From: an uncultured Phycisphaeraceae bacterium
GTDB lineage: Bacteria > Planctomycetota > Phycisphaerae > Phycisphaerales > UBA1924
Direction: 5' to 3'
NCBI GenBank assembly: GCA_937899905.1
Contig: CALCCF010000057.1
Coordinates: 37,074 to 101,073 of the forward strand
Length of the DNA stretch: 64,000 nt
Positions 22,341 to 39,725 of the stretch are shown in pieces (position 1 is the stretch's first letter; each line of letters begins with the position of its first letter). The notes beneath the pieces are model-generated. The model did not search any database and was not told where the DNA came from. It saw only the letters and a program-made list of their open reading frames with translations. Both the position numbers and the translations under genes were made by a program.

Positions 22341-22753
22341 ATTCCATCATCCTCCGCACCGCCACGCGTTTCATGCTCCCACTGCTGATCCTGTTCAGCG
22401 TGATCGTGCTGCTGCGCGGGCACAACCTGCCGGGCGGCGGGTTCGTCGGCGGGCTGCTGGCCACCAGCGCTTTCGTTCTCTACGCGATGGCGTTCGGCGT
22501 CCCGGCATTGCAACGGCTCTTGCGTCTCCCGCTCACCACCTACATCGCGGTCGGCCTTGGCATGGCGATCGTGAGCGGGTTCCCATCGTTAATCGAGGGT
22601 GGACCGTTCCTCTACGGCATGTGGGGCAGCTTCAACCTGGCGGGCATCGGCGAGATCAAGGTCGGCACCCCGCTTCTGTTCGATATCGGCGTCTACTTCA
22701 CCGTCATGGGCGTGTGCCTGATGATGCTACTCACCCTGGCGGAAGAGTCATAA
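22337..22753 (+). CDS. mrpB: Na+/H+ antiporter subunit MrpB
   Basis: A 138-aa membrane subunit of the Mrp complex with about four helices. The start [20 protein letters not shown] and the loop [20 protein letters not shown] are typical of MrpB/MnhB. The GTG start overlaps the mrpA stop by 4 nt. Confidence 0.94.
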
Positions 22754-22763
22754 GGGAGGCCGC

Positions 22764-23111
22764 ATGGAACTGCTACTTGCCATCGCGGTCGGAGCCTTGT
22801 ACGCCACGGGGATCTACATGATCCTGCGGCGCAGCTTCGTGAAGCTCATCATCGGTCTTGCGCTCATAAGCCACGGGGCGAACTTGCTGATCTTCGCCGC
22901 CGGCGGGCTCATTCGCGGCAACCCGGCGCTCATCCCCGAGGATCAGGAGCAACTCACGGGCAAGTTCAGCGACCCGTTGCCGCCGGCGCTCATCCTGACG
23001 GCCATCGTCATCAGCTTTGCCATCCTGTCGTTCACCATCGTGCTCGTGAAGCGCACATACCAGGAGGTTGGCACCGACGACCTCGACGCCATGCGGACCA
23101 CCGACCGATGA
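22764..23111 (+). CDS. mrpC: Na+/H+ antiporter subunit MrpC (NuoK-like)
   Basis: A 115-aa, three-helix subunit related to NuoK of complex I. Diagnostic stretches are [20 protein letters not shown] and [14 protein letters not shown], followed by a cytoplasmic-side loop with [20 protein letters not shown] and a last helix. GGGAGG lies before the ATG. Its stop overlaps the mrpD start (ATGA). Confidence 0.95.
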
Positions 23112-24748
23112 ACCTCACCGTGATCCTGCCCATCCTGGTTCCTCTTGCCACAACGGTGCTGTGCATCGGGTTGTGGAAGAACCGGGCTGCGCAGCGGTGG
23201 TTCAGCGTCGCCGGTGCGGTCGCGCTCTTCGCGTCAGCGGTCTGGCTGATGATGGGCACCAGCGATGGCGAGGTGCTCACAACCAACTCGGCGGGTTGGC
23301 CCGCCCCATTCGGCATCACGCTCGTCGCCGACACGCTCAGCGCGATGCTTGTGGTGCTCAACGGCGTGGTGGGCGTGTGCATCGTGGTCTACAGCCTCGG
23401 CGCGATCGATCGCAAGCGAGAGAGCTTCGGCTACCACCCGCTGGTGCACGCCGTACTTGCGGCCTGCTCGGGCGCCTTCATGACCGGCGACATCTTCAAC
23501 ATGTACGTCTGGTTCGAGATCATGCTGCTGGCCTCGTTTGTGCTGCTCACTCTGGGCGGAGAGCGCGGCCAGCTCGAGGGCGCCATCAAGTACGTCACGC
23601 TGAACCTGCTCTCCAGCGGCATCTTCCTCGCTGCCATCGGCCTGCTCTACGGCATGACCGGCACGCTGAACATGGCCCATCTGGCGATCGTTCTGGATCG
23701 CTCGGAGAACCCAGGGGCGATCACGGCGCTGTCGATGTTGTTCCTGGTCGCGTTTGGCATCAAGGCCGCGGTCTTTCCGCTGTTCTTCTGGCTGCCGGCC
23801 AGCTACCACACGCCGCCAGTGGCAATCACCGCGCTCTTTGCGGGCCTGCTGACCAAGGTTGGCGTCTACTCGATCATCCGCACGTTCACACTGCTGTTCG
23901 ACCAGCAGCTCGACACGACGGCCACGATCATCATGTGGATTAGCGGCCTGACGATGGTGACCGGCGTGCTCGGTGCCGCGTGCCAGTTTGAGATCCGCCG
24001 CATCCTGGCGTTCCACAGCGTGAGCCAGATCGGCTACATGCTCATGGGCCTGGGCATCGCGCTGTACGCGCTGGCGCACGCCGAGCCTGACAGCGTGGCG
24101 GCGCGAGAGACGGCCAAGGTCGCCCTCGCCGGCTCGGCCATGTTCCTCTTGCACCACGGCATCGTGAAGGGCAACCTCTTCCTGATCAGCGGGCTGATCC
24201 AGCGTCTTGCGGGCACGAGCGAACTGAAGCACCTAGGCGGGCTGATCAAAACGCACCCGTGGACAGGCGTGCTGTTCCTCGTCTCCGCACTCTCGCTTGC
24301 GGGCATCCCGATCTCGACAGGCTTCTGGGGCAAGTTCGTCCTGGTCAAGAGCGGCTTGTCCGCTGGCGCGTTCGCGCTGGTGGCGGCGTCGCTTGGCGTG
24401 AGCATCCTGACGCTGTACTCGATGACCAAGATCTGGGCCGAAGCGTTCTGGAAGGAGCCGCCCGAGAGCATGCCCGAGCCCCCACCGGTCCACGGCACAC
24501 AAGATCGCGTTCGTATCGGCCTTATGACCGCCCCGATCGTGGCGCTCGCGGCGGGCACACTCGTCCTTGGCATCTTCGTCGGCCCGCTTTACGCGGTGGC
24601 CGAACGCGCCGGCGAGCAGGTGCTCGACACCGAGGGCTACCAGCGTGCGGTGCTGGGTGAGTACTACGAGCGAGCCGTCGAAGGCACGCTCCGCGAGTTG
24701 GCTACCGTTCCCCCGGCGAACGGTGATGGCACGGAGGGCAAGCCATAG
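23108..24748 (+). CDS. mrpD: Na+/H+ antiporter subunit MrpD (NuoM/N-like)
   Basis: A 546-aa polytopic subunit related to the NuoM/NuoN antiporter-like proteins. Conserved blocks include [20 protein letters not shown] with the channel glutamate, [20 protein letters not shown] with the lysine, and [19 protein letters not shown]. The ATGA overlap couples it to mrpC. It ends in ATAG, which also contains the proposed start of mrpE. Confidence 0.95.
24733..24738 (+). promoter_or_regulatory. Strong Shine-Dalgarno that points to an AUA start for mrpE
   Basis: GGAGGG at 24733-24738 lies inside the end of mrpD, 6 nt before an ATA at 24745 that overlaps the mrpD TAG. No in-frame ATG, GTG or TTG exists between here and 24790, which lies well inside the first membrane helix of MrpE. 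This site therefore decides the likely mrpE start. Confidence 0.6.
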
Positions 24749-25218
24749 GCGCGCTCGTACTCAATCTCGTTCTGGCCCTTGTCTGGGCGATGGCGATCGG
24801 GCCATTCACGCCGACGAACTTCGTCATCGGTTTTGTGCTCGCGTACATCACCCTGAGGCTGTGCATCCCCAAGGAGATGCGTGGGTCGTACTACCACAAG
24901 GTCGGGCGAACCGCTCGCTTTAGCTTCTTCGTGCTCGTCGAACTCGTCATCGCCAACCTCAAGATGGCCTATTACACCATGAGCCCGCTTCGCAAGCTGA
25001 AGCCGGGCGTGCTCGCCGTGCCGCTCGAGGAGCTCTCCGATACCGAGCTCACGATCCTGGCGAACCTGATCACGCTCACGCCCGGCACGCTGAGCCTCGA
25101 TGTTGCGGCCGATCGGTCGATACTCTTCATCCACTTCATGCACGTCGAGGACCCCGACGAGATGCGCCGCGAGATCAAGGAAGGCTTCGAGCGACGGCTG
25201 CTGGAGGTGACACGATGA
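24745..25218 (+). CDS. mrpE: Na+/H+ antiporter subunit MrpE, probable AUA start
   Basis: Subunit needed for assembly of the Mrp complex. From the ATG at 24790 the protein would be 142 aa and miss the first half of its N-terminal helix. Reading from the ATA at 24745 gives 157 aa and restores the family-like start [20 protein letters not shown], then TPTNFVIGFVLAYITLRL. A strong GGAGGG is 6 nt upstream and the ATAG overlap mirrors the ATGA/GTGA overlaps elsewhere in the operon. AUA initiation is rare, so the start is inferred. Later motifs (LITLTPGTLSLDV, LFIHFMHVEDP) confirm MrpE. Confidence 0.9.
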   Translation: MGALVLNLVLALVWAMAIGPFTPTNFVIGFVLAYITLRLCIPKEMRGSYYHKVGRTARFSFFVLVELVIANLKMAYYTMSPLRKLKPGVLAVPLEELSDTELTILANLITLTPGTLSLDVAADRSILFIHFMHVEDPDEMRREIKEGFERRLLEVTR

Positions 25219-25559
25219 ACGCCTCCCTGGTCTCCTCCACCTTCGCCATCGTGCCGGCCCAGATCGAGACGGCCATGTTCGAGGGCCCCATCGCCATCCA
25301 GGCGGTGCTGCTCATCGTCCTGGGCATGCTCGCACTGGCCATGATCGGCTGCCTCGTGCGGCTGCTCTTGGGCCCAACGCTGCCCGACCGCGTGGTCGCC
25401 CTCGATCTCCTAGGCATGTTCGCCGTCGCGGTCATCGCGATCTTCGCGATCCTCATCGGCCGCCCGGTTCTGCTGAGCGTGTGCCTCATCATGGGCCTGA
25501 TCCTGTTCCTCGGGACGGCGGCCTTCGCGCTCTATCTGGAACGGAGGGCTCGGCCGTGA
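25215..25559 (+). CDS. mrpF: Na+/H+ antiporter subunit MrpF
   Basis: A 114-aa subunit with three helices. The motif RLLLGPTLPDRVVALDLLG is diagnostic of MrpF/MnhF. About 25 residues precede the first helix, longer than usual. ATGA overlap with mrpE and GTGA overlap with mrpG keep it tightly coupled. Confidence 0.93.
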   Translation: MNASLVSSTFAIVPAQIETAMFEGPIAIQAVLLIVLGMLALAMIGCLVRLLLGPTLPDRVVALDLLGMFAVAVIAIFAILIGRPVLLSVCLIMGLILFLGTAAFALYLERRARP

Positions 25560-26083
25560 ACGAAGTCATGGTCACCTCCGTCACCTGGTTCAATTACACG
25601 CTCACCGTGCTGCTCGTGTTGATCGGCGGGTTCTTCAGCGTGCTCGCCGCGGTGGGCCTGCTTCGAATGCCCGATGTCTACACACGGATGCAGGCGGCGA
25701 CCAAGGCCGGCACGCTGGGCGTCGGCTGCATGGTGCTCGCCGTCGCCACGCACTTCGTTACGCTCGACGTGGTGCTCGAATCGCTGCTGGTCATCGTGAT
25801 GCTGTTCATCACAGCCCCGATCGCCAGCCACCTGATTGCCCGGGCGGCCTACTTCGTCGGCAGCCCGCTCTGGGACGGCACCGCCTACGACGAAATGCGG
25901 GGCTGCTACGACGCCGATTCCCACATGCTCCACAACTGCCCTATGCCGACGTCAGACGACAGCGTCGATCCACGGCCTTCGCTCGTCGCCGGGCGGACCT
26001 CACGCGAGGTCATGACCGATGAGGACGACGAGGACACAACGCCCCGACGCCACCCCGATCGGTCGCGCTCGCAGGCGAGCTGA
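25556..26083 (+). CDS. mrpG: Na+/H+ antiporter subunit MrpG
   Basis: Last subunit of the Mrp antiporter, 175 aa with three helices. The stretch [20 protein letters not shown] followed by [16 protein letters not shown] is diagnostic of MrpG/MnhG. Beyond the usual length of about 110-120 residues there is a polar C-terminal tail of about 50 residues rich in Asp, Glu and Arg, without a recognised motif. The GTG at 25556 overlaps the mrpF stop. purE follows after 23 bp, so the purine genes may be read from the same transcript. Confidence 0.92.
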
Positions 26084-28314: not shown

Positions 28315-29361
28315 TCAGTCCACCCAGATGTGCGCCTCGATGCGATTTCCTTCACCGGGCACGACCTTGGCGATCGGGCGGAGGTAGTTGTTCCGCTGAT
28401 CGAGTGCGCCAGTTCCGGGGTTGTCCTCTCGATCCAACGAGCCTCGGATGACCCCACGAGCGTCGCTGTCCTTCACGATCGATACGCCCTCGTCGATGAG
28501 CGCCCGTGTGCGATCATGCTCGGCATGGAAGAAGTTGTCGGGCAACTCGAACGGCTCGTCGGTTCCAGGCCGAATGAAGGTCCACACGTGCTTCTCGGGA
28601 TCGGGCCGCGTCACGAACTCCGTGTGCTGATCGTTGAACACGATGTTGCCCTCCCACGTTGTGGGCTCGCCGTGGATGCGCATCGTCGTCGAGCCATCGC
28701 CGAAGGGCGTGTCTGAAAGTGGGACCCACGCGTCTCTATCCAGCGTGTACGTGGGGCCTCGATTACCGAAGTCCACACGTTTGGAATCGAACATGTTGCT
28801 CCACAGCCGATCTCGGGCGCCAAACCATGCGACCTGGGCGTAGGAATTGTGGCTCGCGTCGCCGACCTTTCCGGGTATACGGCCACCCCACTCGTCGAGC
28901 GGCGTGCCGCGGAAGGCCGGATCCCAGAGTGCACGTTCGGGATCAACCGCCGACGGCGGTCTGGCCGAGCGATAGCCATCGAACGCTTCGACGTTCCCGA
29001 CTTCTGCCGGGCTCACGGCGAGATCGACCCGAAAGAACCCGTTCCACATGAGCAGCGAGAGCACGTTGCCGGTCGTGTCCAGTCTGTGGTCGGGGCCTTC
29101 GAGGCCTTCGGGACGTTGGATCGTGACGCCCGTCTGATCGATAGCGCTCGGCGTCGGAAACCGCTCATCGTTGTACTGCGCCCAGACCGCGCTCGCCTGT
29201 GCGATGCCGCGGAGTTGCGTTGAGTCCTTGATCCGCCACGCGGTCGCTCGTGCCTCCTGGAACTGTGGCAGGGCCAGGATCGCGCCGATCGCGAGTGCGG
29301 CGAGGATCGCCCCGACTTCGATGAGGGTGAAGGCTCTGCGGATCGGTACCGGACGTGTCAT
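28315..29361 (-). CDS. Type II secretion/type IV pilin-like pseudopilin
   Basis: A 348-aa protein with a class III signal: basic leader MTRPVPIRRA, then FTLIEVGAILAALAIGAILA, a prepilin cleavage/methylation motif with Ala instead of Gly before the Phe. The large extracytoplasmic domain (about 310 residues) resembles the long pseudopilin-like proteins common in planctomycetes, which carry no known enzymatic site. The ATG at 29361 is preceded by AAAGGAG with 8-nt spacing. It is upstream of the phosphopantetheinyl transferase gene and divergent from the HlyD operon at 29521; the 159-bp gap must hold both promoters. Confidence 0.85.
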   Translation of the reverse strand: MTRPVPIRRAFTLIEVGAILAALAIGAILALPQFQEARATAWRIKDSTQLRGIAQASAVWAQYNDERFPTPSAIDQTGVTIQRPEGLEGPDHRLDTTGNVLSLLMWNGFFRVDLAVSPAEVGNVEAFDGYRSARPPSAVDPERALWDPAFRGTPLDEWGGRIPGKVGDASHNSYAQVAWFGARDRLWSNMFDSKRVDFGNRGPTYTLDRDAWVPLSDTPFGDGSTTMRIHGEPTTWEGNIVFNDQHTEFVTRPDPEKHVWTFIRPGTDEPFELPDNFFHAEHDRTRALIDEGVSIVKDSDARGVIRGSLDREDNPGTGALDQRNNYLRPIAKVVPGEGNRIEAHIWVD

Positions 29362-29520
29362 CGCGATCGCTCCTTTCGCGAGGACCATCGCACCGGCCCA
29401 CGCTCGCTGCCCGAAATGCTAGGGATTTCTCAGCTGGACCGGACTCGAGCGGCGTTCGAGCCGGATTTCCGGGCGCGTTGGGGAACAAAGACCGACGTTC
29501 CACCCGTATACTTCGCCGTT

Positions 29521-30558
29521 ATGGCGCAAACCAAGCCGACGACCCACCCGATCATTTTCCTAATTTTCGTAACCACGATGCTGGTGTGGTCCGCATTCGT
29601 ACTGCCCACCGCGGGCGCGCAAGAGCGGCAGCAGCCCAGCCAATTCGCGTTCGAGCCGTCATGGGCGGCCGAGTTTGGTGGCATCTACCACTTCACCCAG
29701 CCCAGCAAGGACGCCATGATGGGCTTCAGCCAGCCCACCGAGGTGCGTCAGGTGCTGGTCAAGGTTGGCGATCGCGTCGAGACCGGCGACGTCCTCATCC
29801 GTGCCCGGGACGGCGACATCCAGGCCGCGTACCGCCTGCAGCAGCGGCGGGCCGTAAACCGATTCGAGATCCTCGCCGCCCAGAACCGCGTCGATCTCGC
29901 CCAGATCGAGTTCGACAACCAGCAGGCGGTGCGTCAGGCCGGCGGCGGCACGCCGCTGGAATTCGATCGCGCCAAGGCCTCGCTCGAGAACGCCAAGATC
30001 GAGCTCGACAACGCCAAGGAGCGCTTCATCGAGCAGGGCATTGTGCTCGAGCGCCAGGAAGCCGAGCTCGAGCGTTTCGCCGTGATCGCCCAGTTCGATG
30101 GCACCGTGGCCTCGATCGAGGTCTCGCCCGGCCAAGCCATGCAAGACAGCGAGCCCGCGCTTCGCTTGGTCTCGATCGATCCGCTGCAAGTGAAACTGCC
30201 CACGCCGACCAGCACGGTTATTGGTACCGGCCTGGATCGCGGAGACAAGGCCTGGGTCGCCGTGAGCGTTGCGGGCGAGCCGAGGCTGTTTGAGGCGGTC
30301 GTGACCGAGGTCAGCCCGGTGGCGGACTTCGGCTCGGACAAGGTGTGGGTGAAGGTCCAGATGGACAACCCCGAGCGGGTCCCGTCGGGTTTGCCCGCTT
30401 GGGTGCGGTTTACCGAGCCGACCGACGCCTTTATGCGCATCCTTGCTCAGAGTGAGGCGGAGCGGGGAGCCGAGCGTGAAGAAGACGGGGACGGCAGCGA
30501 AGCCGAGGTCGGCCAGGCGCCGATGGACACCCCCGCGCTGGCCGCCGACGCCGGCTGA
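29521..30558 (+). CDS. Periplasmic adaptor (HlyD/RND membrane-fusion) protein
   Basis: A 345-aa adaptor. An N-terminal membrane anchor or signal (HPIIFLIFVTTMLVWSAFVL) is followed by the first half-lipoyl strand set (VRQVLVKVGDRVETGDVLIR), an alpha-helical hairpin of about 80 residues, the second half-lipoyl (IAQFDGTVASIEVSPGQAM) and a beta-barrel domain. The last 35 residues are acidic and disordered. The ATG at 29521 begins the signal-like segment. It is the first gene of a four-gene export-type operon with two more HlyD-containing proteins and a SecA-like ATPase; no outer-membrane TolC gene is present. Confidence 0.9.
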   Translation: MAQTKPTTHPIIFLIFVTTMLVWSAFVLPTAGAQERQQPSQFAFEPSWAAEFGGIYHFTQPSKDAMMGFSQPTEVRQVLVKVGDRVETGDVLIRARDGDIQAAYRLQQRRAVNRFEILAAQNRVDLAQIEFDNQQAVRQAGGGTPLEFDRAKASLENAKIELDNAKERFIEQGIVLERQEAELERFAVIAQFDGTVASIEVSPGQAMQDSEPALRLVSIDPLQVKLPTPTSTVIGTGLDRGDKAWVAVSVAGEPRLFEAVVTEVSPVADFGSDKVWVKVQMDNPERVPSGLPAWVRFTEPTDAFMRILAQSEAERGAEREEDGDGSEAEVGQAPMDTPALAADAG

Positions 30559-30654
30559 CGGCCCGGACGGCCCACAACCCAGGACACCCAGGCCGGTGCG
30601 CGCGAGCTGCGCGTCGGCCAGCCTCGTGGCCCGTGGCCCAACGCAGGAGCACAC

Positions 30655-32646
30655 GTGACGGATATCTCGAACCTGAGAACACCGGCCTGGCGCCGCATCG
30701 TTGAGGAGCTCTCAGCCGATGCGCCATCCGCCACGGCGTTCCTGGCCCGCTTGTGCGGCGTGCTGACGCGAGTCGCCAACGCGAAGCAGGGCGCCGTCGT
30801 CATCGTTTCGCACGCTGACGGCGGGGACCAGGCCGACGCCGAGCCGCAGCTCGCGTATGCGATCACGCCGGGCACCGTTCAGGGCGGGCGCGCGAGCGAG
30901 CCCAAGCGTATCGATCCCGGCCAGGTTGAGCACGCGTCGTGGATCCGCTCCGCGGCGGTCGAATCGGTGCGCAGCGGCGAGGCCCGCGTCTTCGCGCTCG
31001 AAGCCCAGAACTCACCCATGTACGGCGCCGGTGGTGACGGCGGCGCCGTGATCAGCGGCCCGGTGGACATGCCGCTTGGCGGTGGGCACAAGGCCACGAT
31101 CTGCCTGACCATCGAGCAACGTTCGCGCGAGGCGACGCAGACGACGATGGCGCTCGTCGAGGTGCTGTGCGGTTACGCCAAGCTGCACGCGGCCAGACAA
31201 GAAGCCAAGGGCGCGTGGCAATCGTCGGCAGCGCTCGATCTTGCGGGCCGGCTCATCGCCTCAATCAACGAGTCGACCAGCTTCAAGGGCGCTTCGATCC
31301 AACTCGTCAACGACCTGGCACGCGCGGCCTCGGCCGATCGCGTGGCGCTCGGCTGGGTGAAGGGCTTGGGCGATTCGGGCGTGATCCGGGTTCAGTCGCT
31401 CAGCGATACCGAGCACGTCGATCGGCGCCTGCACATGGTCCGAATGCTCCAGGCCGCCATGGAAGAGTGCTTCGACCAGACGCACGCGGTGGTGTATCCC
31501 GTGCCTCAGGCCGATCGGCCCGAGGGCGACGAAGGCGAGCCGGCGGTCGACCCGACGCTGGCCGCTGCCGTGACGCACGCGCACCGCGAGTTAGCGTCCT
31601 CCGATGCTCGCTTGCGGGTGGCGTCGCTGCCGATCCGCTCGGGCGAACGCGTGGTTGGCGTCGTGACCATCGAGCTTTCCGAGGACGGCATGCTCACGCC
31701 CGAGCGGCTGGAGCTCCTGCAGGCCACGCTCGACCTCATCGGCCCGGTGATGGAGCTTCGCCGCAGCGACGATCGCCCCCTGCCGCAGCGTGCGTGGCAC
31801 AGCACGCTGAAGACTGGCACGTGGCTCGTCGGCCCCAAGCACACCGCGTGGAAGGTTGCGGCATTCGTTGCGCTGGCCATCCTACTGACCATTACGTTCG
31901 TCAAGATCCCGTATCGCATCGATGCGCAGGCCGAGCTGATGGCCGTCAGCGAGCGTGCGGTGGCCGCCCCGTTCGCCGGCGTTATCGCGACGGTACCCGA
32001 GGGCATCCGCCCGGGCGTGCAGGTGACCAAGGGGCAGTTACTGCTCCAATTGGACACCACCGAGCTGCGTGAGAGCCGCATCGATGCCCGGGCGTCGGTA
32101 TCGGCCGCCCGGCGAGAAGCCGACGAGGCGCGCAAGGAGCAGAACATGACCGCCGCCGAGCAGGCGCTCGGTCGGCTCGAGCAGGAGATGGCTCGCCTGC
32201 GATACATCGACGTCCAGATCGAGCGGTCGACGATCACCGCTCCGATCGACGGCACGATCGTGTCGGGCGACCCGCGCCGGCTCATCGGGTCGGCGATCCA
32301 GGTGGGTGAGCCCATGTTCCGGATCGCCAGCCTCAATCAGCTCGAGGTCGTAGCGCGCGTGCCCGACAGCGACATCGGGTACGTCTCGCCCGAAAGCGTG
32401 GGCGGCTTTGCGACGCGCGCACGACCGGGCGAGCGTTTCCAGTTCGAGGCGAACTCGCTGGTACCAATGGGGCAACCCGACGAGGGCGCGAACATCTTCG
32501 AGCTGCGCGGCACGCTGGTCGAGACGCCGGGTTGGCTGCGGCCGGGCATGGAAGGCATCGCCTACATCGATACCGGCGACCGGCGGATCATCTGGATCCT
32601 CAGCCGCCGCATCATCGACACCGCCCGCCTCTGGCTGTGGTATTGA
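30655..32646 (+). CDS. GAF-domain protein fused to HlyD adaptor
   Basis: A 663-aa two-part membrane protein. The first 380 or so residues are cytoplasmic and look like two GAF-type sensor units: about 20-180, and about 195-370 with AASADRVALGWVKGL and RVASLPIRSGERVVGVVTIE. A single transmembrane helix at about 401-417 (AAFVALAILLTITFV) leads to a HlyD half: APFAGVIATVPEGIRPGVQV, a helical hairpin, and STITAPIDGTIVSG. The start is a GTG at 30655. It could couple a cytosolic signal to assembly of the export complex (inference). The next gene starts 24 bp downstream. Confidence 0.88.
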   Translation: MTDISNLRTPAWRRIVEELSADAPSATAFLARLCGVLTRVANAKQGAVVIVSHADGGDQADAEPQLAYAITPGTVQGGRASEPKRIDPGQVEHASWIRSAAVESVRSGEARVFALEAQNSPMYGAGGDGGAVISGPVDMPLGGGHKATICLTIEQRSREATQTTMALVEVLCGYAKLHAARQEAKGAWQSSAALDLAGRLIASINESTSFKGASIQLVNDLARAASADRVALGWVKGLGDSGVIRVQSLSDTEHVDRRLHMVRMLQAAMEECFDQTHAVVYPVPQADRPEGDEGEPAVDPTLAAAVTHAHRELASSDARLRVASLPIRSGERVVGVVTIELSEDGMLTPERLELLQATLDLIGPVMELRRSDDRPLPQRAWHSTLKTGTWLVGPKHTAWKVAAFVALAILLTITFVKIPYRIDAQAELMAVSERAVAAPFAGVIATVPEGIRPGVQVTKGQLLLQLDTTELRESRIDARASVSAARREADEARKEQNMTAAEQALGRLEQEMARLRYIDVQIERSTITAPIDGTIVSGDPRRLIGSAIQVGEPMFRIASLNQLEVVARVPDSDIGYVSPESVGGFATRARPGERFQFEANSLVPMGQPDEGANIFELRGTLVETPGWLRPGMEGIAYIDTGDRRIIWILSRRIIDTARLWLWY

Positions 32647-32670
32647 TCAAGCAGGATGAGGTAAGCCGGC

Positions 32671-34863
32671 ATGCGTGACCGCCCGACCTTCAGCCCGATG
32701 TGGAGCCGCGTGCATGCGATGAAGCCGCGCCTGCGCTCGCACACGCAGATCACGCGGCAGCACTACCGCGGCAAGCGCTGGCACGTGGTGCATGACCCGG
32801 CTAGCAACCAGTTCTATCGCCTCACGCCGATGGCATACGAGTTCGTGTGCCTGCTCGACGGCAAACGCTCGGTCGAGGAGACCTGGCACCTGTGCCTGGA
32901 AACCCACGGCGACTCGGCGCCGACGCAAGTGGAAGCGGTCGAGCTCATCAGCCAGCTCTACAACGCCAACCTTCTCATGGCCGAGGAAACACCCGAGACC
33001 GAGCAATTGCTCAACCGGGCCCGCCAGCGTGTGAAGAAGAAGGCCATCGGTCAGGCGATGGGCATCATGTACTTCCGCATCCGGCTGTTCAATCCCGATG
33101 CGATCTTCACGGCCGTCGAGCCGATCGTCCGCCCGCTGATCAACCGCTGGGGCTTCATTGCCTGGTGTGTGCTGATGCTCTCCGCGTTGGTCGCGCTCGC
33201 GGGCGAGGCTGGAACACTGTTCGACTCCGAGCGATTCCAGGGCGCGATCGCGCCGGCCAACTGGCCGTGGCTGATCGTGGTCTTCATCGTCAGCAAGATC
33301 ATCCACGAGAGCGGCCACGGGCTGGTCTGCAAGCGGTTCGGCGGGCAGGTGCCGGAGTTTGGCATCATGATGCTCGTGATGTTCCCGGCGCCGTTCGTCG
33401 ACGCCTCGAGCACGTGGGCCTTTGCGAGCAAGTGGAAGCGCGTCGCCGTCGGCGCGGCGGGCATGATCTTCGAGCTGGCGGGGGCGGCCATCGCCGGCGT
33501 CGTGTGGCTCGCGACGCTGGATACGGGCGGCGTGGTCAACCAGTTTGCCTACAACGCGATGCTGACGGCCAGCATCAGCACGATCATCTTCAACGCCAAC
33601 CCATTGATGCGATTCGACGGGTACTACATCCTCAGCGACCTGCTCGAGGCGCCCAACCTCATGCAGCGCGCCCAGAACCTGATCAAGTACCAGTTCCAAC
33701 GGTACTACTACCGCGTGAAGAACGCCAAGCCCCCCACCGTGCAACCCGGCGAGCGGCCTGTGCTCATCGCGTACGGCTGGCTCGCGCTCGCGTACCGCGT
33801 GTTCCTGTTCTTCTCGATCACGCTGTTCGTCATGGGCCAGCTCTTTGGGCTCGGTCTCGTGCTGGCGATCTGGACCGCGTCGGTGTGGTTCATCATCCCG
33901 GTCGGGAAGTGGACGCACTGGCTGGCGACCAACCCACAACTGGCCGAGAAGCGCGGCCGGGCGGTGCTGGCGAGCATCGGCGGCATCGCCCTGGCCGGCG
34001 TGCTGCTCGGTGGCGTGCCCATGCCCGACCACAGGCGCGCCAGCGCGGTCATCGAGAGCGAACAGTTCACGGGCGTCTACGCAGGGACAGCCGGATTCGT
34101 GGAGGACGTGTTGGTCGAGCCGGGACAGTTGGTCGAGGAAGGCCAGGCGATCGCGGTCGCCGAGAACCCGGAGCTCGAGGCCCAGCTGGCCCAGGCCCAG
34201 GGCCAGTTCCGCGAGCTCGAGGCGCGATTCCGAGACGCGATGGCGCAGGAGGTGCCCATCGCAGACCTGATGACCGAGCGTCGAGCGGTGCTCCAGGAGC
34301 GCGTGGCGTTCTTGCAGAAGCGGGTCGATGAGCTGACGATCCGTGCGCCACACGCGGGCCATATCTCCGATGATCCGCGCGCCCTCGCGGGCATGTACGT
34401 GCAGCAGGGCGAGCCGGTGTGCGCGGTCGTGGCGACCGAGGACATCCGTGTCGTGGCGTCGATGGACCAGCGCGAGGCGGACTGGCTGCAGACCATGAGC
34501 TTCGAACAGGACTTCACCGCACAGATCCGGCGGCGCACGCAGCCTGGCGTCTCGCACGAGGTCACCACGTTCGTTCGCAGGGATGCTGGCGACCGTGCGC
34601 TGCCCCACCCGGCGCTGGCCGATGTCGGTGGTGGCCAGGTGCAGACCGATCGCCAGGCGATGCAGCAGGGCTCCCAGGGCGCACAGGCGACGACGCCTCG
34701 CTTCATTGTCGAGATGGATGCGGATTTCGCCGCCTCGGGATCGGGTGCGGTGCCGCTGCCGGGCGAGCGCGTCGCGGTTCGATTCACGCTGCCGCCGCGC
34801 CCGCTGATCAGCCAGTGGGTCGATCGCCTGCGGCAGCTCGTGCAGGGGCGGATCGACATCTGA
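32671..34863 (+). CDS. PqqD-like / M50 zinc protease / HlyD fusion membrane protein
   Basis: A 730-aa fusion protein. Residues about 28-110 resemble a PqqD (RiPP-recognition) fold (DPASNQFYRLTPMAYEFVCL, ISQLYNANLLM). A multi-helix membrane block is a site-2-protease-type M50 peptidase: zinc ligands in HESGH (His212, Glu213, His216) and the third ligand Asp316 in NPLMRFDGYY. After further helices (to about 450) come half-lipoyl strands (GTAGFVEDVLVEPGQLVEEG) and a helical hairpin of a HlyD adaptor. This layout matches bacterial putative peptide zinc metalloproteases linked to peptide export. Its TGA shares one base with the ATG of the SecA-like gene. Confidence 0.88.
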   Translation: MRDRPTFSPMWSRVHAMKPRLRSHTQITRQHYRGKRWHVVHDPASNQFYRLTPMAYEFVCLLDGKRSVEETWHLCLETHGDSAPTQVEAVELISQLYNANLLMAEETPETEQLLNRARQRVKKKAIGQAMGIMYFRIRLFNPDAIFTAVEPIVRPLINRWGFIAWCVLMLSALVALAGEAGTLFDSERFQGAIAPANWPWLIVVFIVSKIIHESGHGLVCKRFGGQVPEFGIMMLVMFPAPFVDASSTWAFASKWKRVAVGAAGMIFELAGAAIAGVVWLATLDTGGVVNQFAYNAMLTASISTIIFNANPLMRFDGYYILSDLLEAPNLMQRAQNLIKYQFQRYYYRVKNAKPPTVQPGERPVLIAYGWLALAYRVFLFFSITLFVMGQLFGLGLVLAIWTASVWFIIPVGKWTHWLATNPQLAEKRGRAVLASIGGIALAGVLLGGVPMPDHRRASAVIESEQFTGVYAGTAGFVEDVLVEPGQLVEEGQAIAVAENPELEAQLAQAQGQFRELEARFRDAMAQEVPIADLMTERRAVLQERVAFLQKRVDELTIRAPHAGHISDDPRALAGMYVQQGEPVCAVVATEDIRVVASMDQREADWLQTMSFEQDFTAQIRRRTQPGVSHEVTTFVRRDAGDRALPHPALADVGGGQVQTDRQAMQQGSQGAQATTPRFIVEMDADFAASGSGAVPLPGERVAVRFTLPPRPLISQWVDRLRQLVQGRIDI

Positions 34864-36908
34864 TGCAGGCCACGCCGTCCATGCCCGAGTCCATGCCCTC
34901 GCCGGGAGGCGGGCAAGCCGCCCACGACCTGACGCGGTACGAGGTCATGTACCAGGCGTTGCGCGCCCGGCAGCGCAAGCCCGCCCACTACACGGGGCTC
35001 GACAAGGTCGCGGTGATGGCGCGAGCCCGGGCCGATCGGCTGCGCGTCACGCGGCGCTCGTTGATGGCCGAGGCCAACCGGATCGATGCGCTCAGGCCAG
35101 GCATCTTCGACCTGAGCGAGTCGCAGCTCGACGAGTCGCTGCGGGCATCCCGCGAGGCGTTCGTGCGTGGGCGCGCCGATGATGAGCAGCTCCGCCAGGC
35201 GCTCGGCCTGCTCCGCGAGATCGCCAGGCGAGAGACCGGGCAGGAGCCCTATGTCGTGCAGCTAGCTGGTGCGCTGGGGCTCTACCACGGCCGCGTGATC
35301 GAGATGGCGACCGGCGAGGGCAAGACGCTGACCGGCTCGATCGCCGCGCCGCTGATCGCCTGGAGCCGCAGCCGATTGCACGTGCTCACGGTCAACGACT
35401 ACCTGGCCGCGCGGGACGCCGAGAGCCGGGCGCCCATCTATACGCGGTGCGGACTGACCGTGGGCGCGATCACGCAGGAGATGCCGCCCGCCGAGCGCGC
35501 GGGCGTGTATGCCCGGCACATCGTGTACGGCACGCCCAAGCAGATCACCGCCGACTGGCTGCGCGACCAGCTGCGCATCGGCCGCCTGAAGACGCCCTGG
35601 AGCGGCCGGCAGGCGCTGACCCGGCTGGGGCACTCGCCGCAGGCCGCCGGCTTGGCACCGCTGGTACCCGGCCTGCACGCGGCGATCGTCGATGAGGCCG
35701 ACGCGGTGCTGATCGACGAGGGCGTGGTGCCGCTGATCATCGCCCAGCCGCGCAAGGAAGACGAGATGAGCGGCGTCTACCACGCCGCCGCGCGCATCGC
35801 CTCGCGGCTGGACGAGGGGCCGGACTACACGATCGAGCACGTGCGGCGGCGGGCCGAGCTTAAGCGGCGTGGCCGTGACCGGCTCGCGGACTTCTTCGGC
35901 GAAGAGAGCGACCCGATCTGGCGCGCACCGCGGCGCGCCGAGGAGCTCATCAAGCAGGCCCTCGCGGCTCGGCACTGCTACCTGCGGGGGCACCAGTACC
36001 AGGTCGTCGACGGCCGCGTGGTGATCGTGGACGAGTACACCGGGCGCTACCTCGCGGATCGATCCTGGGAGCACGGGCTGCACCAGGCCGTCGAGGCGAA
36101 GGAGGGCGTCGAGGTCACCGCCGATCGCGAGACCCTGGCCCGGGTGAGCTTCCAGCGGTTCTTCCGCAGCTATCGCTTCCTGGGCGGCATGAGCGGCACG
36201 GTGGTCGACGGGCGCGGCGAGATCGAGGCCGTGTACCAGCGGCCGGTGATCGCCATCCCGACGAACAGGCCGCTGATCCGTGAGCGTTGGCCGACGCGCA
36301 TCTTCCGATCGAGCAGCGCCAAGTTCGCCGCCATCGTCGACTCGATCGTCGCCCAGCACGCCCAGGGGCGACCGGTGCTCGTGGGCACGCGGTCGATCGA
36401 GGTCAGCGAGCGAGTCAGCGAGCGCCTCGAAGCGCGCGGCCTCGCGCACCAGGTTTTGAACGCCAACTTCGACGAGACCGAGGCCGAGCTGATCGCGCAG
36501 GCCGGGCGGAGCGGCGCGATCACGGTCGCGACGAACATGGCCGGCCGCGGCACGGACATCCTGCTCGACGAGCGGGCGACCGAGGCCGGCGGGCTGCACG
36601 TGATCCTCACCGAGCTGCACGCCTCGAAGCGCATCGACCGCCAGTTCATCGGCCGCTCCGGCCGCCAGGGCGACCCGGGCAGCGCGCAGATCTTCACCAG
36701 CCTGGAAGACGAACTCCTCGTCCACAACATGGCGCCACTCGCGGCGTTCATCCGCAGGCGCACCGCGCGTGAGGAGATCTCGCGCGATCGGCTCGCACGG
36801 TTCGCGGTCCGCCAGGCCCAGAAGAAGGCCGAGGCGCGCGACCGCATCAACCGCGGGCACGTCCTCCGGCAGGACGACTGGATCGAGAAGCACCTGCCGG
36901 GCGGCTAG
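34863..36908 (+). CDS. Accessory SecA-like ATPase lacking the C-terminal wing and scaffold domains
   Basis: A 681-aa SecA homologue, against about 840-950 aa for housekeeping SecA. Motor motifs are intact: Walker A MATGEGKTLT, YGTPKQITADWLRD, the DEAD box VDEADAVLIDEG, a short preprotein-crosslinking segment, SGTVVDGRGEIEAVY, TNMAGRGTDILLDE, and RQFIGRSGRQGDPGSAQIF. The sequence ends only about 70 residues after the last motor motif, so the helical wing and most of the helical scaffold are absent, as is the zinc-binding tail. It is coupled to the M50/HlyD gene (TGATG). It probably powers export of a special substrate class; that is inference. Confidence 0.9.
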   Translation: MQATPSMPESMPSPGGGQAAHDLTRYEVMYQALRARQRKPAHYTGLDKVAVMARARADRLRVTRRSLMAEANRIDALRPGIFDLSESQLDESLRASREAFVRGRADDEQLRQALGLLREIARRETGQEPYVVQLAGALGLYHGRVIEMATGEGKTLTGSIAAPLIAWSRSRLHVLTVNDYLAARDAESRAPIYTRCGLTVGAITQEMPPAERAGVYARHIVYGTPKQITADWLRDQLRIGRLKTPWSGRQALTRLGHSPQAAGLAPLVPGLHAAIVDEADAVLIDEGVVPLIIAQPRKEDEMSGVYHAAARIASRLDEGPDYTIEHVRRRAELKRRGRDRLADFFGEESDPIWRAPRRAEELIKQALAARHCYLRGHQYQVVDGRVVIVDEYTGRYLADRSWEHGLHQAVEAKEGVEVTADRETLARVSFQRFFRSYRFLGGMSGTVVDGRGEIEAVYQRPVIAIPTNRPLIRERWPTRIFRSSSAKFAAIVDSIVAQHAQGRPVLVGTRSIEVSERVSERLEARGLAHQVLNANFDETEAELIAQAGRSGAITVATNMAGRGTDILLDERATEAGGLHVILTELHASKRIDRQFIGRSGRQGDPGSAQIFTSLEDELLVHNMAPLAAFIRRRTAREEISRDRLARFAVRQAQKKAEARDRINRGHVLRQDDWIEKHLPGG

Positions 36909-36920
36909 GCCGCGCTCTGA

Positions 36921-37520
36921 TCAGCGTCGGCGGCGGATCGCGACCAGACCGAACAGGACGAGCCCGCTCGCCGGCGCGGGGATGACGGAGATGGTGCCCG
37001 AGCCCTCGGCCAGGCCGTCCAGGCGGCTCTCGGCATCGGACGAGTCCCGCTCGATGTACACCTCGAAGCGATCGGTCCGCGTGGACAGATCGACGGCGAA
37101 TGCGCCCGCGTCCGTCGGCGCGGTGAACGTCGCCGACCAGAACGCGATGGGGTCGCTGGAGTCCGCCCCGCCACCCGCGGGCGGGAAGTTGAGCTGCCCG
37201 GCGATGATCCCTGCATAGCCGCCCGCTTCGGGGACGCCCGGCGTCGTGCCCGGTCCGGCCATACGCCCGACGAGTGTGACATCCGACCACGCGCTCTCAA
37301 TGCCGACGCCGCCCGAATCGGCGAGCAGGCTCGTCAGGATGCCCGCCATCGCAAAGTCCTGCGTGCTGTCGAAGCCCGCCAGCAGCGTGACCGTGGTCGA
37401 CTCTCCGGGCGCGAGCACCGGCTGGTCGATCTCGATGATGACCTCGCCGGGACCCTGCGCGCACGCCACGCCTGCGAACAGGGAGGACGCGGCGGCGATC
37501 CCGAGTGTGCTGTGCATCAT
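36921..37520 (-). CDS. Secreted protein with PEP-CTERM-like tail, paralogue 1 of 4
   Basis: A 199-aa exported protein. A signal peptide ends near AGVACAQ. The body is a beta-rich domain with the family blocks GIIAGQLNFPPA, FWSATFTAP and RFEVYIERDSSDAESRLDGL. The tail PAPASGLVLFGLVAIRRRR is a sorting-type signal: a Pro-Ala-Pro motif, a membrane helix and an arginine cluster, as in PEP-CTERM proteins but with Ala in place of Glu. The ATG at 37520 (a second ATG follows) has GGAAGGGAG upstream. Last of four tandem paralogues read leftwards; it converges on the SecA-like gene 12 bp away. Confidence 0.85.
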   Translation of the reverse strand: MMHSTLGIAAASSLFAGVACAQGPGEVIIEIDQPVLAPGESTTVTLLAGFDSTQDFAMAGILTSLLADSGGVGIESAWSDVTLVGRMAGPGTTPGVPEAGGYAGIIAGQLNFPPAGGGADSSDPIAFWSATFTAPTDAGAFAVDLSTRTDRFEVYIERDSSDAESRLDGLAEGSGTISVIPAPASGLVLFGLVAIRRRR

Positions 37521-37550
37521 GGCGTGGCTCCCTTCCAGGCCCATCGATCG

Positions 37551-38159
37551 TCAGCGTCGGCGGCGGGACGCGAGCAGGGCGAGCATGACGAGCCCGCTCG
37601 CGGGCGCGGGCACGACGATGATCCGCCCCGAGCCCTCGGTCAGCCCGTCCAGGCGGCTCTCGCTGCGGGACGAGTCCCGCGAGACGTACACGTCGAACCG
37701 GGTTGACAGGGTCGACAGGTCGACGGCGAACCCACGCCCTTCATCGGGCGCGGTGAACGTCGCCTGCCAGAAGGGGATCGGGTCGCTGCGAGCGGTCGCC
37801 CCCGGGTCCTGCCACCAGTGGAACTGGCCCGCGATGATGCCGGCAAAGCCGCCGGCATCGGGCACACCGGGCGTGGTGCCGGGGTAGGCCATCCGGCCCA
37901 GGAGGGTCGCATCGGACCACGCTCCGCTGACGTTGACCCCGCCGGTCTCGGCCAGCAGGCTCGTCGCGATCCCGCCCATGGCGAAGTCGACCGCGCTGTC
38001 GTAATCCGCCAGCAGCCGCACGGTCGTCGACTCTTCGGGCATGAGCACGGGCCGGTCGATCTCGATGATGACCTCGCCCGGCGACTGGGCCAGGGCCGTG
38101 CCGGAGAGTGCGAGCGTGGCGGCGGCGGACGCCGCGGCGGCGATGGGCGTGCGGTGCAT
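37551..38159 (-). CDS. Secreted protein with PEP-CTERM-like tail, paralogue 2 of 4
   Basis: A 202-aa paralogue of the gene at 36921-37520, and the pair is very similar: both share GEVIIEID, the GTTPGVP segment and GIIAGQ. The signal peptide ends near GTALAQ. Tail: PAPASGLVMLALLASRRRR. It has HWWQDPG where its paralogues have the NFPPA or HFPPA block. The ATG at 38159 is chosen for its signal peptide and the upstream GGGGG; an open frame continues upstream through a 21-bp tandem repeat but has no coding support. Thirty bases separate it from paralogue 1. Confidence 0.85.
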   Translation of the reverse strand: MHRTPIAAAASAAATLALSGTALAQSPGEVIIEIDRPVLMPEESTTVRLLADYDSAVDFAMGGIATSLLAETGGVNVSGAWSDATLLGRMAYPGTTPGVPDAGGFAGIIAGQFHWWQDPGATARSDPIPFWQATFTAPDEGRGFAVDLSTLSTRFDVYVSRDSSRSESRLDGLTEGSGRIIVVPAPASGLVMLALLASRRRR

Positions 38160-38313
38160 GGTGGACCCCCTGTCCGAGTCGTCCGGCGGACGCCGGGCGT
38201 GTTGAGAACGTGCGTTCCGATACGGGCGCGGGCCCGCGTTCGGTTCCGTGGGTCCGGAAATGGGACGGATCGGGCCGCACGGGCCCTGCGGGCCGATGCC
38301 CGGTCCGAGAACG
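38160..38313. other. Gene-free spacer upstream of paralogue 2
   Basis: Together with the adjoining repeat (38314-38460) and 47 further bases, this makes a 348-bp gap between paralogues 2 and 3. It should hold the promoter of the leftward genes 2 and 1. It contains the inverted repeat GAACG-TG-CGTTC at 38206-38217, about 47 bp before the paralogue 2 start, a possible operator. I see no convincing -35/-10 pair. Confidence 0.4.
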
Positions 38314-38460
38314 GCGGTGACGGTCCTTCGCGCGGCGTTGACGGAGGGACGGGTGGCGTTAACCGAAGCTCGCGCGGCTGTAACCGAAGCTCGGGTTGCG
38401 GTAACGGAAGGACGCGCGGCGGCACCCGAAGCCCGCGCGGCGGCGACCGAGGCTCGGGCA
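38314..38460. repeat. Seven imperfect 21-bp tandem repeats
   Basis: Seven consecutive 21-bp units run from 38314 to 38460, followed by a partial unit. The typical + strand unit is GCG-GTA-ACC-GAA-GCT-CGC-GCG with substitutions but no indels. Because 21 is a multiple of three, both strands stay open across the array and would read as heptads (A-V-T-E-A-R-A on +, R-A-S-V-T-A-A on -). It lies between two genes with good ribosome sites and is probably non-coding, though a transcribed or translated role is not excluded. Confidence 0.85.
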
Positions 38461-38507
38461 GCCGCGATGCGGGAGGGTGTGGCGACCATCCGACACCCGG
38501 CCGGCAC

Positions 38508-39095
38508 TCAGCGTCGCCGACCGATGGCGAGCCAGCCAGCGGCGAGCACGGCCACGCCCGGTGGCGCGGGGATCACGAAGATGGTGGCCGAGTCCTCGAT
38601 AGCCAGGTCGAGGCGCGACACGATCTCCGTCGAGTCGCGATCGAGCCAGGCCTCGAAGCGTGACGTGCCGGTCCGCAGTTCAACCACGTAGCCGCCGCCG
38701 GCATCGATCGGCGCCGTGAACGTCGCCTCCCAGAAGGGGATGGGGTTGGTCGGATCGGCGTAGATGCTGGCCGGCGGGAAGTGCAGCTGGCCGATCGCGA
38801 TCGCCTCGATGCCGAGATCTGTGGGCACGCCCGCGCTGGGGCCGCTGTCCATCGGCGGCAGGATCCCGAGATCGGAGAAGCCGCGGGCCCCCGGCGTGCC
38901 GTCGAAGTCGATCCGTAGATCGAGGTCGGCGACGGCGAAGGCGTAGTCGCGGTCGAGCACGGTGGCCACGAGCCGCACGCTCGTCGAGTCGCCCGGGGCC
39001 AGGATCGGCTCGTCGATCTGGATGCTCACGCCCACGGTCTGGGCGGCGGCGGTCGAGCCCAGCGCGAGCGCGGCGGCGATGGCGATGCGTTGCAT
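38508..39095 (-). CDS. Secreted protein with PEP-CTERM-like tail, paralogue 3 of 4
   Basis: A 195-aa member of the tandem family and the most diverged. The signal peptide ends near STAAAQT. It keeps AIGQLHFPPASIYAD, FWEATFTAP and RFEAWLDRDSTEIVSRLD, and ends PAPPGVAVLAAGWLAIGRRR. GGGAG lies 8 nt before the ATG at 39095. Only 18 bp separate it from paralogue 4, so these two are probably one transcript, while the repeat-bearing gap follows it. Confidence 0.84.
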   Translation of the reverse strand: MQRIAIAAALALGSTAAAQTVGVSIQIDEPILAPGDSTSVRLVATVLDRDYAFAVADLDLRIDFDGTPGARGFSDLGILPPMDSGPSAGVPTDLGIEAIAIGQLHFPPASIYADPTNPIPFWEATFTAPIDAGGGYVVELRTGTSRFEAWLDRDSTEIVSRLDLAIEDSATIFVIPAPPGVAVLAAGWLAIGRRR

Positions 39096-39113
39096 GGACG
39101 GCGCTCCCGTGGT

Positions 39114-39725
39114 TTAGCGGCGGCGGCGGGTCGTGAGCACGAACCCGATCCCGAGCACGGCCGCGCTCGCCGGCGCGGGCACCACGAAGAACCGGCCCCT
39201 TCCTTCCGTCAGGTCGTCGAGCCGCGATTCGCTGGTCGCTCGATCACGCGCAACGTATACATCGAAGCGGCTTGTCGTCGTCGTGAGATCAACGACGTAG
39301 CCGCCGGGCTGGTCGGCCGGCACGGTGAACGTGGCCTCCCAGAACACGATGGGGTTGCTGTCGTCCGCGTAGATGCCCGCGGGCGGGAAGTTCAGCTGGC
39401 CCGCGAGGATGCCGCCGACGCCGGATCCGGCGGGCGTGCCCGCGAACGTCCCGGGCCCGTCCATGGGCGCGACGAGCGTGGGATCGCTCCAAGCACCGCT
39501 GAGGTCACGCGGAGCGCTGGCCAGGATGTCAGTCGCTACGCCTGCAACGGCGTAGTCGGCGGGGTCAAAGCCGGCCGTCATCGTGATGCTGACGACGCTG
39601 CCAGGAAAGATCGCGCTCCCGCCGGAGTCGACGATGATGTCCAGCGTGGGCCCTTGGGCCAAGGCGGACGACGCGGCGGCGAGCAGGGATGCGGCGGTGG
39701 TGGCTGCAAGGGTGGTGCGATTCAT
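39114..39725 (-). CDS. Secreted protein with PEP-CTERM-like tail, paralogue 4 of 4
   Basis: A 203-aa exported protein, first in the leftward array. The signal peptide ends near SSALAQ. The body has GILAGQLNFPPAGIYADD, FWEATFTVPADQPGG and RFDVYVARDRATSESRLDDL; the tail begins PAPASAAVLGIGFVLTT and ends in four Arg. GGGAGGAA precedes the ATG at 39725. A 12-bp palindrome lies 60 bp upstream. Function is unknown; the shared beta-rich body suggests a surface or adhesive role (inference only). Confidence 0.85.
   Translation of the reverse strand: MNRTTLAATTAASLLAAASSALAQGPTLDIIVDSGGSAIFPGSVVSITMTAGFDPADYAVAGVATDILASAPRDLSGAWSDPTLVAPMDGPGTFAGTPAGSGVGGILAGQLNFPPAGIYADDSNPIVFWEATFTVPADQPGGYVVDLTTTTSRFDVYVARDRATSESRLDDLTEGRGRFFVVPAPASAAVLGIGFVLTTRRRR

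Follow-up and report, generated by a model that had tools for sequence, protein, structure and literature searches.

A predicted SecA-powered, type-I-like export operon in a Phycisphaeraceae bacterium, with LEPR-XLL proteins as its likely cargo

The window analysed here is a stretch of 64,000 nucleotides from contig CALCCF010000057.1 of an uncultured Phycisphaeraceae bacterium, and our subject is a four-gene operon on its forward (+) strand, at positions 29521–36908, that we regard as a candidate protein exporter. The first gene (29521–30558) encodes a HlyD-type periplasmic adaptor (Pfam HlyD_D23/HlyD_3) with a hydrophobic, signal-like N-terminal segment (hydropathy 2.97 across 12 residues); 29521 is its best start, and a longer frame opens at 29416. 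The second (30655–32646) encodes a GAF–HlyD fusion (Pfam GAF and HlyD_D23), laid out as a GAF part that is predicted to be cytosolic, a single hydrophobic segment and a periplasmic HlyD part. The third (32671–34863) encodes a PqqD–M50–HlyD fusion in which Pfam Peptidase_M50 and HlyD score above the cut-off and PqqD scores below it (20.6 bits versus a cut-off of 23.4), and with it HlyD domains are found by Pfam in all three adaptors. The fourth (34863–36908) encodes a wingless SecA-like ATPase (SecA2; Pfam SecA_DEAD, SecA_PP_bind and P-loop_SecA), whose start is placed at 34863 because the M50 stop and the SecA start overlap (TGATG, 34861–34865). These four genes, and four genes of a neighbouring array that encode exported proteins with a PAPAS tail, are all present with open frames. 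The original prediction for this DNA had described coupled HlyD, M50–HlyD and SecA genes, a PqqD–M50–HlyD fusion and a SecA without its C-terminal wing; the Pfam domains and the M50/SecA overlap bear out this picture, with the sub-threshold PqqD score as noted. Its GAF–GAF–HlyD adaptor stands with respect to HlyD and one GAF domain (best stretch, residues 217–363), and a second GAF was not detected by Pfam.

The SecA-like protein aligns to residues 24–607 of the B. subtilis SecA chain and has no Pfam match to the wing-scaffold (SecA_SW). Because the alignment ends at residue 607 and the wing-scaffold is missing, the protein stops short of both the wing and the two-helix finger, on the usual borders of these domains in SecA. 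The ATPase domains and the preprotein cross-linking domain are both present, and the Walker A motif, GEGKT, is unchanged across 13 aligned SecA-like sequences. An AlphaFold model of the protein (pLDDT 70, pTM 0.64) matches solved SecA structures. In the AlphaFold2 model of the M50 fusion (pLDDT 78, pTM 0.49), residues 26–98 form three strands followed by three helices, which is the order expected of a PqqD/RRE domain. Foldseek gives no verdict either way on the PqqD assignment, because the best 50 matches to the fusion show efflux-type adaptors. The M50 fusion is predicted, from its sequence, to combine a leader reader, an intramembrane metalloprotease and a periplasmic adaptor in one chain.

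The operon is a member of a SecA_DEAD/HlyD/M50 locus that was described in 2015 (Kamneva et al., PMC4452313) with its substrate unknown and, in the part of that paper considered here, with its broader biological role called completely unknown. As that part of the paper has it, the locus is recognized by a SecA_DEAD protein that lacks the wing-scaffold or retains only a small piece of it and by adjoining M50–HlyD, GAF–HlyD and HlyD genes, and both features are found in the window. The two also share Planctomycetes and Proteobacteria among their hosts; relative to the same part of the description, our analysis adds giant LEPR-XLL proteins as the likely cargo and identifies two recurrent components, PqqD and DUF3467.

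Conservation of the four-gene order had been proposed as a check, and the gene set does recur in other Planctomycetota and in Pseudomonadota and Nitrospira genomes. Among 100 M50 loci fetched from Planctomycetota, 45 contain a SecA frame that scores ≥300 bits within 20 kb of M50 and 64 have a GAF–HlyD relative; among the 35 best M50 matches, these are found in 31 and 32, respectively. Since such a SecA frame occurs in 45/100 loci, M50 alone as a marker in this phylum picks up paralogues, and many of the weaker matches may belong to other systems. Beyond this phylum, we scanned a species collection with a proteobacterial M50 alignment and fetched the best 80 of 564 relatives, which were found by M50 sequence alone and belong, by record title, to Pseudomonadota, Nitrospira and Desulfo-type lineages. 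A SecA-like frame is present in 78 of these 80 loci, three of the frames being degenerate. The HExxH motif is kept in 204/204 related M50 frames of at least 120 bits, and Walker A in 126/130 of the fetched SecA frames that score ≥300 bits. By our own classing, the wingless SecA occurs in 75 of 294 Planctomycetota genomes, and all 75 carry the M50 fusion. Three matches to the SecA-like protein (G156:C10:100894, G202:C20:277306 and G144:C1:5587964) contain one in-frame TAA each and are possibly broken copies.

The genome from which the window comes contains a paralogous operon on contig C36, with GAF–HlyD, M50–HlyD and SecA genes, and three SecA genes in total: a long, canonical-looking one on C77 and the two others on C57 and C36. 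Genes for a DUF3467 protein and a trigger factor precede the C36 operon (L016:4430–6764), and DUF3467 is recurrent in many proteobacterial copies of the operon.

The distribution of LEPR-XLL proteins, which are large to giant and have in common an N-terminal tag, the NCBIfam domain NF012209, that is the cargo tag considered here, was compared with that of the M50 fusion in the same 294 Planctomycetota genomes. At E≤0.1, LEPR is found in 62/101 M50-positive and 12/193 M50-negative genomes (Fisher p 1e-24), and at E≤0.01 in 44/101 and 2/193. When genomes are divided by the wingless SecA instead, again by our own classing, the counts are 52/75 with it and 22/219 without. Within the window's own family, LEPR occurs in 10/10 operon-positive genomes (one of the ten at E 0.053) and in 0/5 operon-negative ones. 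The window genome itself has clear LEPR genes on contigs C20 and C82 and a weaker one on C32, all unlinked to either operon. They encode a subtilase with PPC domains, a cyclophilin and a weakly matrixin-like protein, of 814–1,831 residues; with the cargo genes lying elsewhere, this operon or its C36 paralogue would have to act on these proteins in trans.

The association is also physical in other lineages. In an unpicked draw of 292 genomes from an alphaproteobacterial order, LEPR is found in 22/25 M50-positive versus 10/267 M50-negative genomes (p 2e-22). A LEPR giant of 3,006–15,884 codons, with the gene ends estimated from frame lengths, lies within 15 kb of M50 in 22 of 29 loci, and 18 of these giants are 1.8–2.4 kb away, about the length of one gene. 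Three of the four best-scoring genomes with LEPR only have a divergent M50–HlyD gene beside the giant; in the fourth (G519), no M50–HlyD was seen in the 20 kb fetched around the giant. Among the 80 loci from the species collection, 48 have a giant frame, and 11 show a LEPR start within the 10 kb flank. Forty-eight of the loci, a set picked for the operon, were put to a LEPR search (46 genomes searched). LEPR scores above the curated cut-off in 42/46 of these genomes, and 32/47 loci have a LEPR giant (4,542–19,202 codons; median, 10,009) no more than 5 kb from M50, as checked frame by frame in the DNA. We also opened six of 68 plasmids with an M50 match. On each of the six, which are alphaproteobacterial, the operon begins with a giant frame that has the motif near its start. 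The giants of Pseudosulfitobacter (38,757 bases) and Pontibrevibacter (31,812 bases) are annotated as LEPR-XLL, and those of Methylosinus, Mesorhizobium and Alisedimentitalea under other names, with the Alisedimentitalea motif just upstream of the annotated start; the Pseudohalocynthiibacter frame is unannotated and reaches the end of the record. The annotated start of the giant gene (L132, NZ_CP123586) seems too far downstream, so that the LEPR leader is lost.

Arg and Lys are abundant at the start of LEPR proteins, which carries the motif [LMY]EPRxLL and has no signal peptide by eye. In a hydropathy scan, 19 of 23 LEPR leader stretches lie below the lowest value of the PAPAS signal peptides. 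The tag is a feature of the N-terminus: when the proteins of ≥300 residues encoded at 101 Planctomycetota loci were scanned for LE.R.[LM][LM], it was found within residues 1–130 in 13/857, compared with 0/857 and 1/681 for the two windows that follow. LEPR is replaced by LESR, LEAR, LEDR or LEQR in eight of the 13, and three of these eight come from genomes without a LEPR match (G129, G156 and G234). At two SecA-less alphaproteobacterial loci (L222 and L230), a giant with DUF4347 starts LEER-ILFDA or LEER-IMFDG beside M50–HlyD. Because giants with LEER starts adjoin such SecA-less loci, NF012209 probably does not cover the whole tag family, and DUF4347 proteins may use a sister exporter. In the parts of the literature covered here, including parts of PMC10868602 and PMC9611531, no exporter is assigned to NF012209, and no paper was found that joins LEPR-XLL with the SecA/HlyD/M50 module, subscription papers and preprints lying outside the search.

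From these observations we consider it likely that the operon at 29521–36908 is a SecA-powered, type-I-like exporter and that its cargo is the LEPR-XLL proteins of the genome rather than the PAPAS-tail proteins next to it. We infer the cargo from conservation of the operon, co-occurrence and, in other lineages, the adjacency of LEPR genes. The dedicated export system of the original prediction is well supported in this form, and its aside on giant surface proteins near the operon is borne out by the LEPR giants. In peptide pathways, leader peptides are bound by PqqD domains, and the PqqD domain of the M50 fusion would recognize the basic LEPR leader on the cytosolic side. The operon encodes no obvious motor other than the SecA-like ATPase, which would drive the unfolded chain; the membrane-embedded M50 part would serve as, or clear, the entry to the conduit and would probably clip the leader; and the three HlyD parts would carry the chain across the periplasm to a TolC-type outer-membrane channel. 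Because PqqD is fused to M50 and HlyD, recognition of the leader, its guidance or clipping and transfer of the chain to the conduit could all fall to a single protein. A bolder version, which we offer tentatively as possible rather than probable, is that PqqD recognizes LEPR-x-LL as an N-terminal export code, that the wingless SecA drives chains of up to ∼19,000 residues through an M50–HlyD conduit without SecYEG and that, in Planctomycetota, Pseudomonadota and Nitrospirota alike, a type-I-like system has SecA in place of its ABC exporter. If LEPR-XLL proteins are the cargo, the orphan locus of 2015 and the orphan tag become one secretion system, and the route would bear on the export of proteins of at least 10,000 residues that have no evident signal peptide.

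With the type I systems (HlyB–HlyD–TolC), the predicted exporter shares HlyD-type adaptors, very large cargo and, in some relatives, a TolC-family channel. TolC relatives are not among the four operon genes; they are found in the Methylosinus locus and in 9/80 loci (Nitrospira and betaproteobacteria by title). It differs in that SecA and M50 take the place of the ABC exporter and in that the tag is N-terminal, whereas the classical RTX cargo of type I systems uses a C-terminal signal. Pfam finds no ABC domain in the four operon proteins, the rest of the genome not having been searched.

Several observations weigh against assigning LEPR-XLL proteins to this machine. No LEPR match is found in 39/101 M50-positive Planctomycetota genomes, of which three (G129, G156 and G234) show a LESR variant in the fetched locus. 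Two genomes (G228 and G087) have LEPR without an M50 match, and no M50 is present in the stretches fetched around the LEPR genes of G228. Co-inheritance in this phylum partly follows kinship, the counts being given without tree correction, and physical linkage is occasional there: at least 10 M50 loci have a LEPR gene within ∼4 kb, the motif points to additional cases among the fetched loci, and no LEPR gene lies near either operon of the window genome. By our classing, the wingless SecA is absent from 26/101 M50-positive Planctomycetota genomes. Elsewhere, an adjacent LEPR giant was not confirmed in 15/47 loci, and M50–HlyD loci without SecA in the fetched stretch adjoin LEPR giants (L217–L219 and L221), which indicates that SecA is not always needed. 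Walker A is lost in five SecA-like frames beside M50 (L055, L158, L175, L199 and L213), and 4/23 LEPR leaders reach the range of the PAPAS signal peptides, so that hydropathy separates the two only in part.

The five SecA-like frames without Walker A are apparent pseudo-ATPases, of which L199 and L213 directly adjoin LEPR giants. L175 shares its organism with L144, where the SecA frame is full, and the genome of L213 carries a second M50 locus. L217 (4128–10228) is an M50/GAF locus without SecA, and close to it are genes for HlyD, an outer-membrane channel, a DUF3467 protein and an ABC exporter; this one case suggests that motors can be exchanged.

An alternative that retains LEPR cargo is that the wingless SecA works with ordinary SecYEG, in the manner of Gram-positive SecA2, and that M50 and HlyD form a conduit used after translocation. 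Here too a second SecA with an altered C-terminal part stands beside a canonical one, and the SecA fold, which spans both ATPase domains and the preprotein cross-linking domain, and the lack of a SecY gene in the operon are compatible with this idea. However, known SecA proteins contact SecY through the wing and two-helix finger, whose absence here argues against the usual use of SecYEG, as does the lack of a signal peptide, by eye, in LEPR leaders. The protein also differs from Gram-positive SecA2 in its linkage to HlyD and M50, in its diderm hosts and in having no SecY in its operon, and it misses the NCBIfam SecA2 cut-offs (TIGR04397, 467.9/1085 bits; TIGR03714, 425.8/930; TIGR04221, 414.4/725; NF012136, 362.3/1100). 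We regard a SecYEG-dependent route as unlikely, though it deserves to be weighed seriously.

Less probable again is a role in leader-peptide maturation, of the kind seen for RiPPs or daptides, with the locus trimming LEPR leaders and another machine exporting the proteins. The PqqD–M50 part resembles the daptide metalloprotease model (NF041824) with an E value of 1.5e-51 at a score below the cut-off (175.8/300 bits), HExxH is invariant, as noted above, and one SecA-less relative has an ABC exporter, HlyD and an outer-membrane channel nearby. Against this stand the three HlyD parts, the SecA and sometimes TolC in the operon, and a cargo thousands of residues long. It is very improbable that the operon and the giants are associated solely by being carried on the same mobile or surface island, with no cargo relation: several copies are on plasmids, but the association is also seen for unlinked genes, including those of the window's own family.

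Scarcely any credence can be given to the last alternative, in which the four adjacent PAPAS-tail proteins are the cargo of the machine. Their genes lie on the opposite (−) strand at 36921–37544, 37551–38159, 38508–39095 and 39114–39725, with 12 bases between the SecA stop (36908) and the first of them, as had been reported, and proteins 2–4 are 46–66% identical to protein 1. The same adjacency is found in another three genomes (G001, G025 and G070) from the genus of the window organism. A profile of the four proteins, run against the 294 Planctomycetota genomes, finds the family in six: five of one genus and G245, a weak match in a genome with no M50 match. It is thus restricted to five of the 101 M50-positive genomes, all of that genus, and missing from the other 96, so that the original proposal of the array as cargo fails the co-occurrence test that came with it. 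Each of the five genomes has at least 10 matches, and among the best 10 per genome 18/50 adjoin the operon (4, 5, 5 and 4, with none in G117). The proteins have, by eye, a Sec-type signal peptide, a short C-terminal P-x-P motif, a hydrophobic run and a basic tail, and the window genome has three Exosortase_EpsH matches above the cut-off, which together make up the feature set of PEP-CTERM/exosortase cargo; the NCBIfam PEP-CTERM and MYXO-CTERM cut-offs are missed (best, 15.2/20 bits for MYXO-CTERM in one of the four). Judged from sequence, Sec signal peptides, a PEP-CTERM-like tail and exosortase-like proteins would be a sufficient separate route. We rejected the array as cargo on its distribution and its own Sec/exosortase-type features; its four members are judged bystanders from a genus-restricted family, and their position beside the operon is best read as local synteny.

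Elsewhere in the window, a run of membrane genes at 19941–26083 resembles, by eye, a multisubunit cation/proton antiporter. A gene at 28315–29388 on the reverse (−) strand, divergent from the operon, encodes a pseudopilin-like protein with RRAFTLIEV near its start, again by eye.

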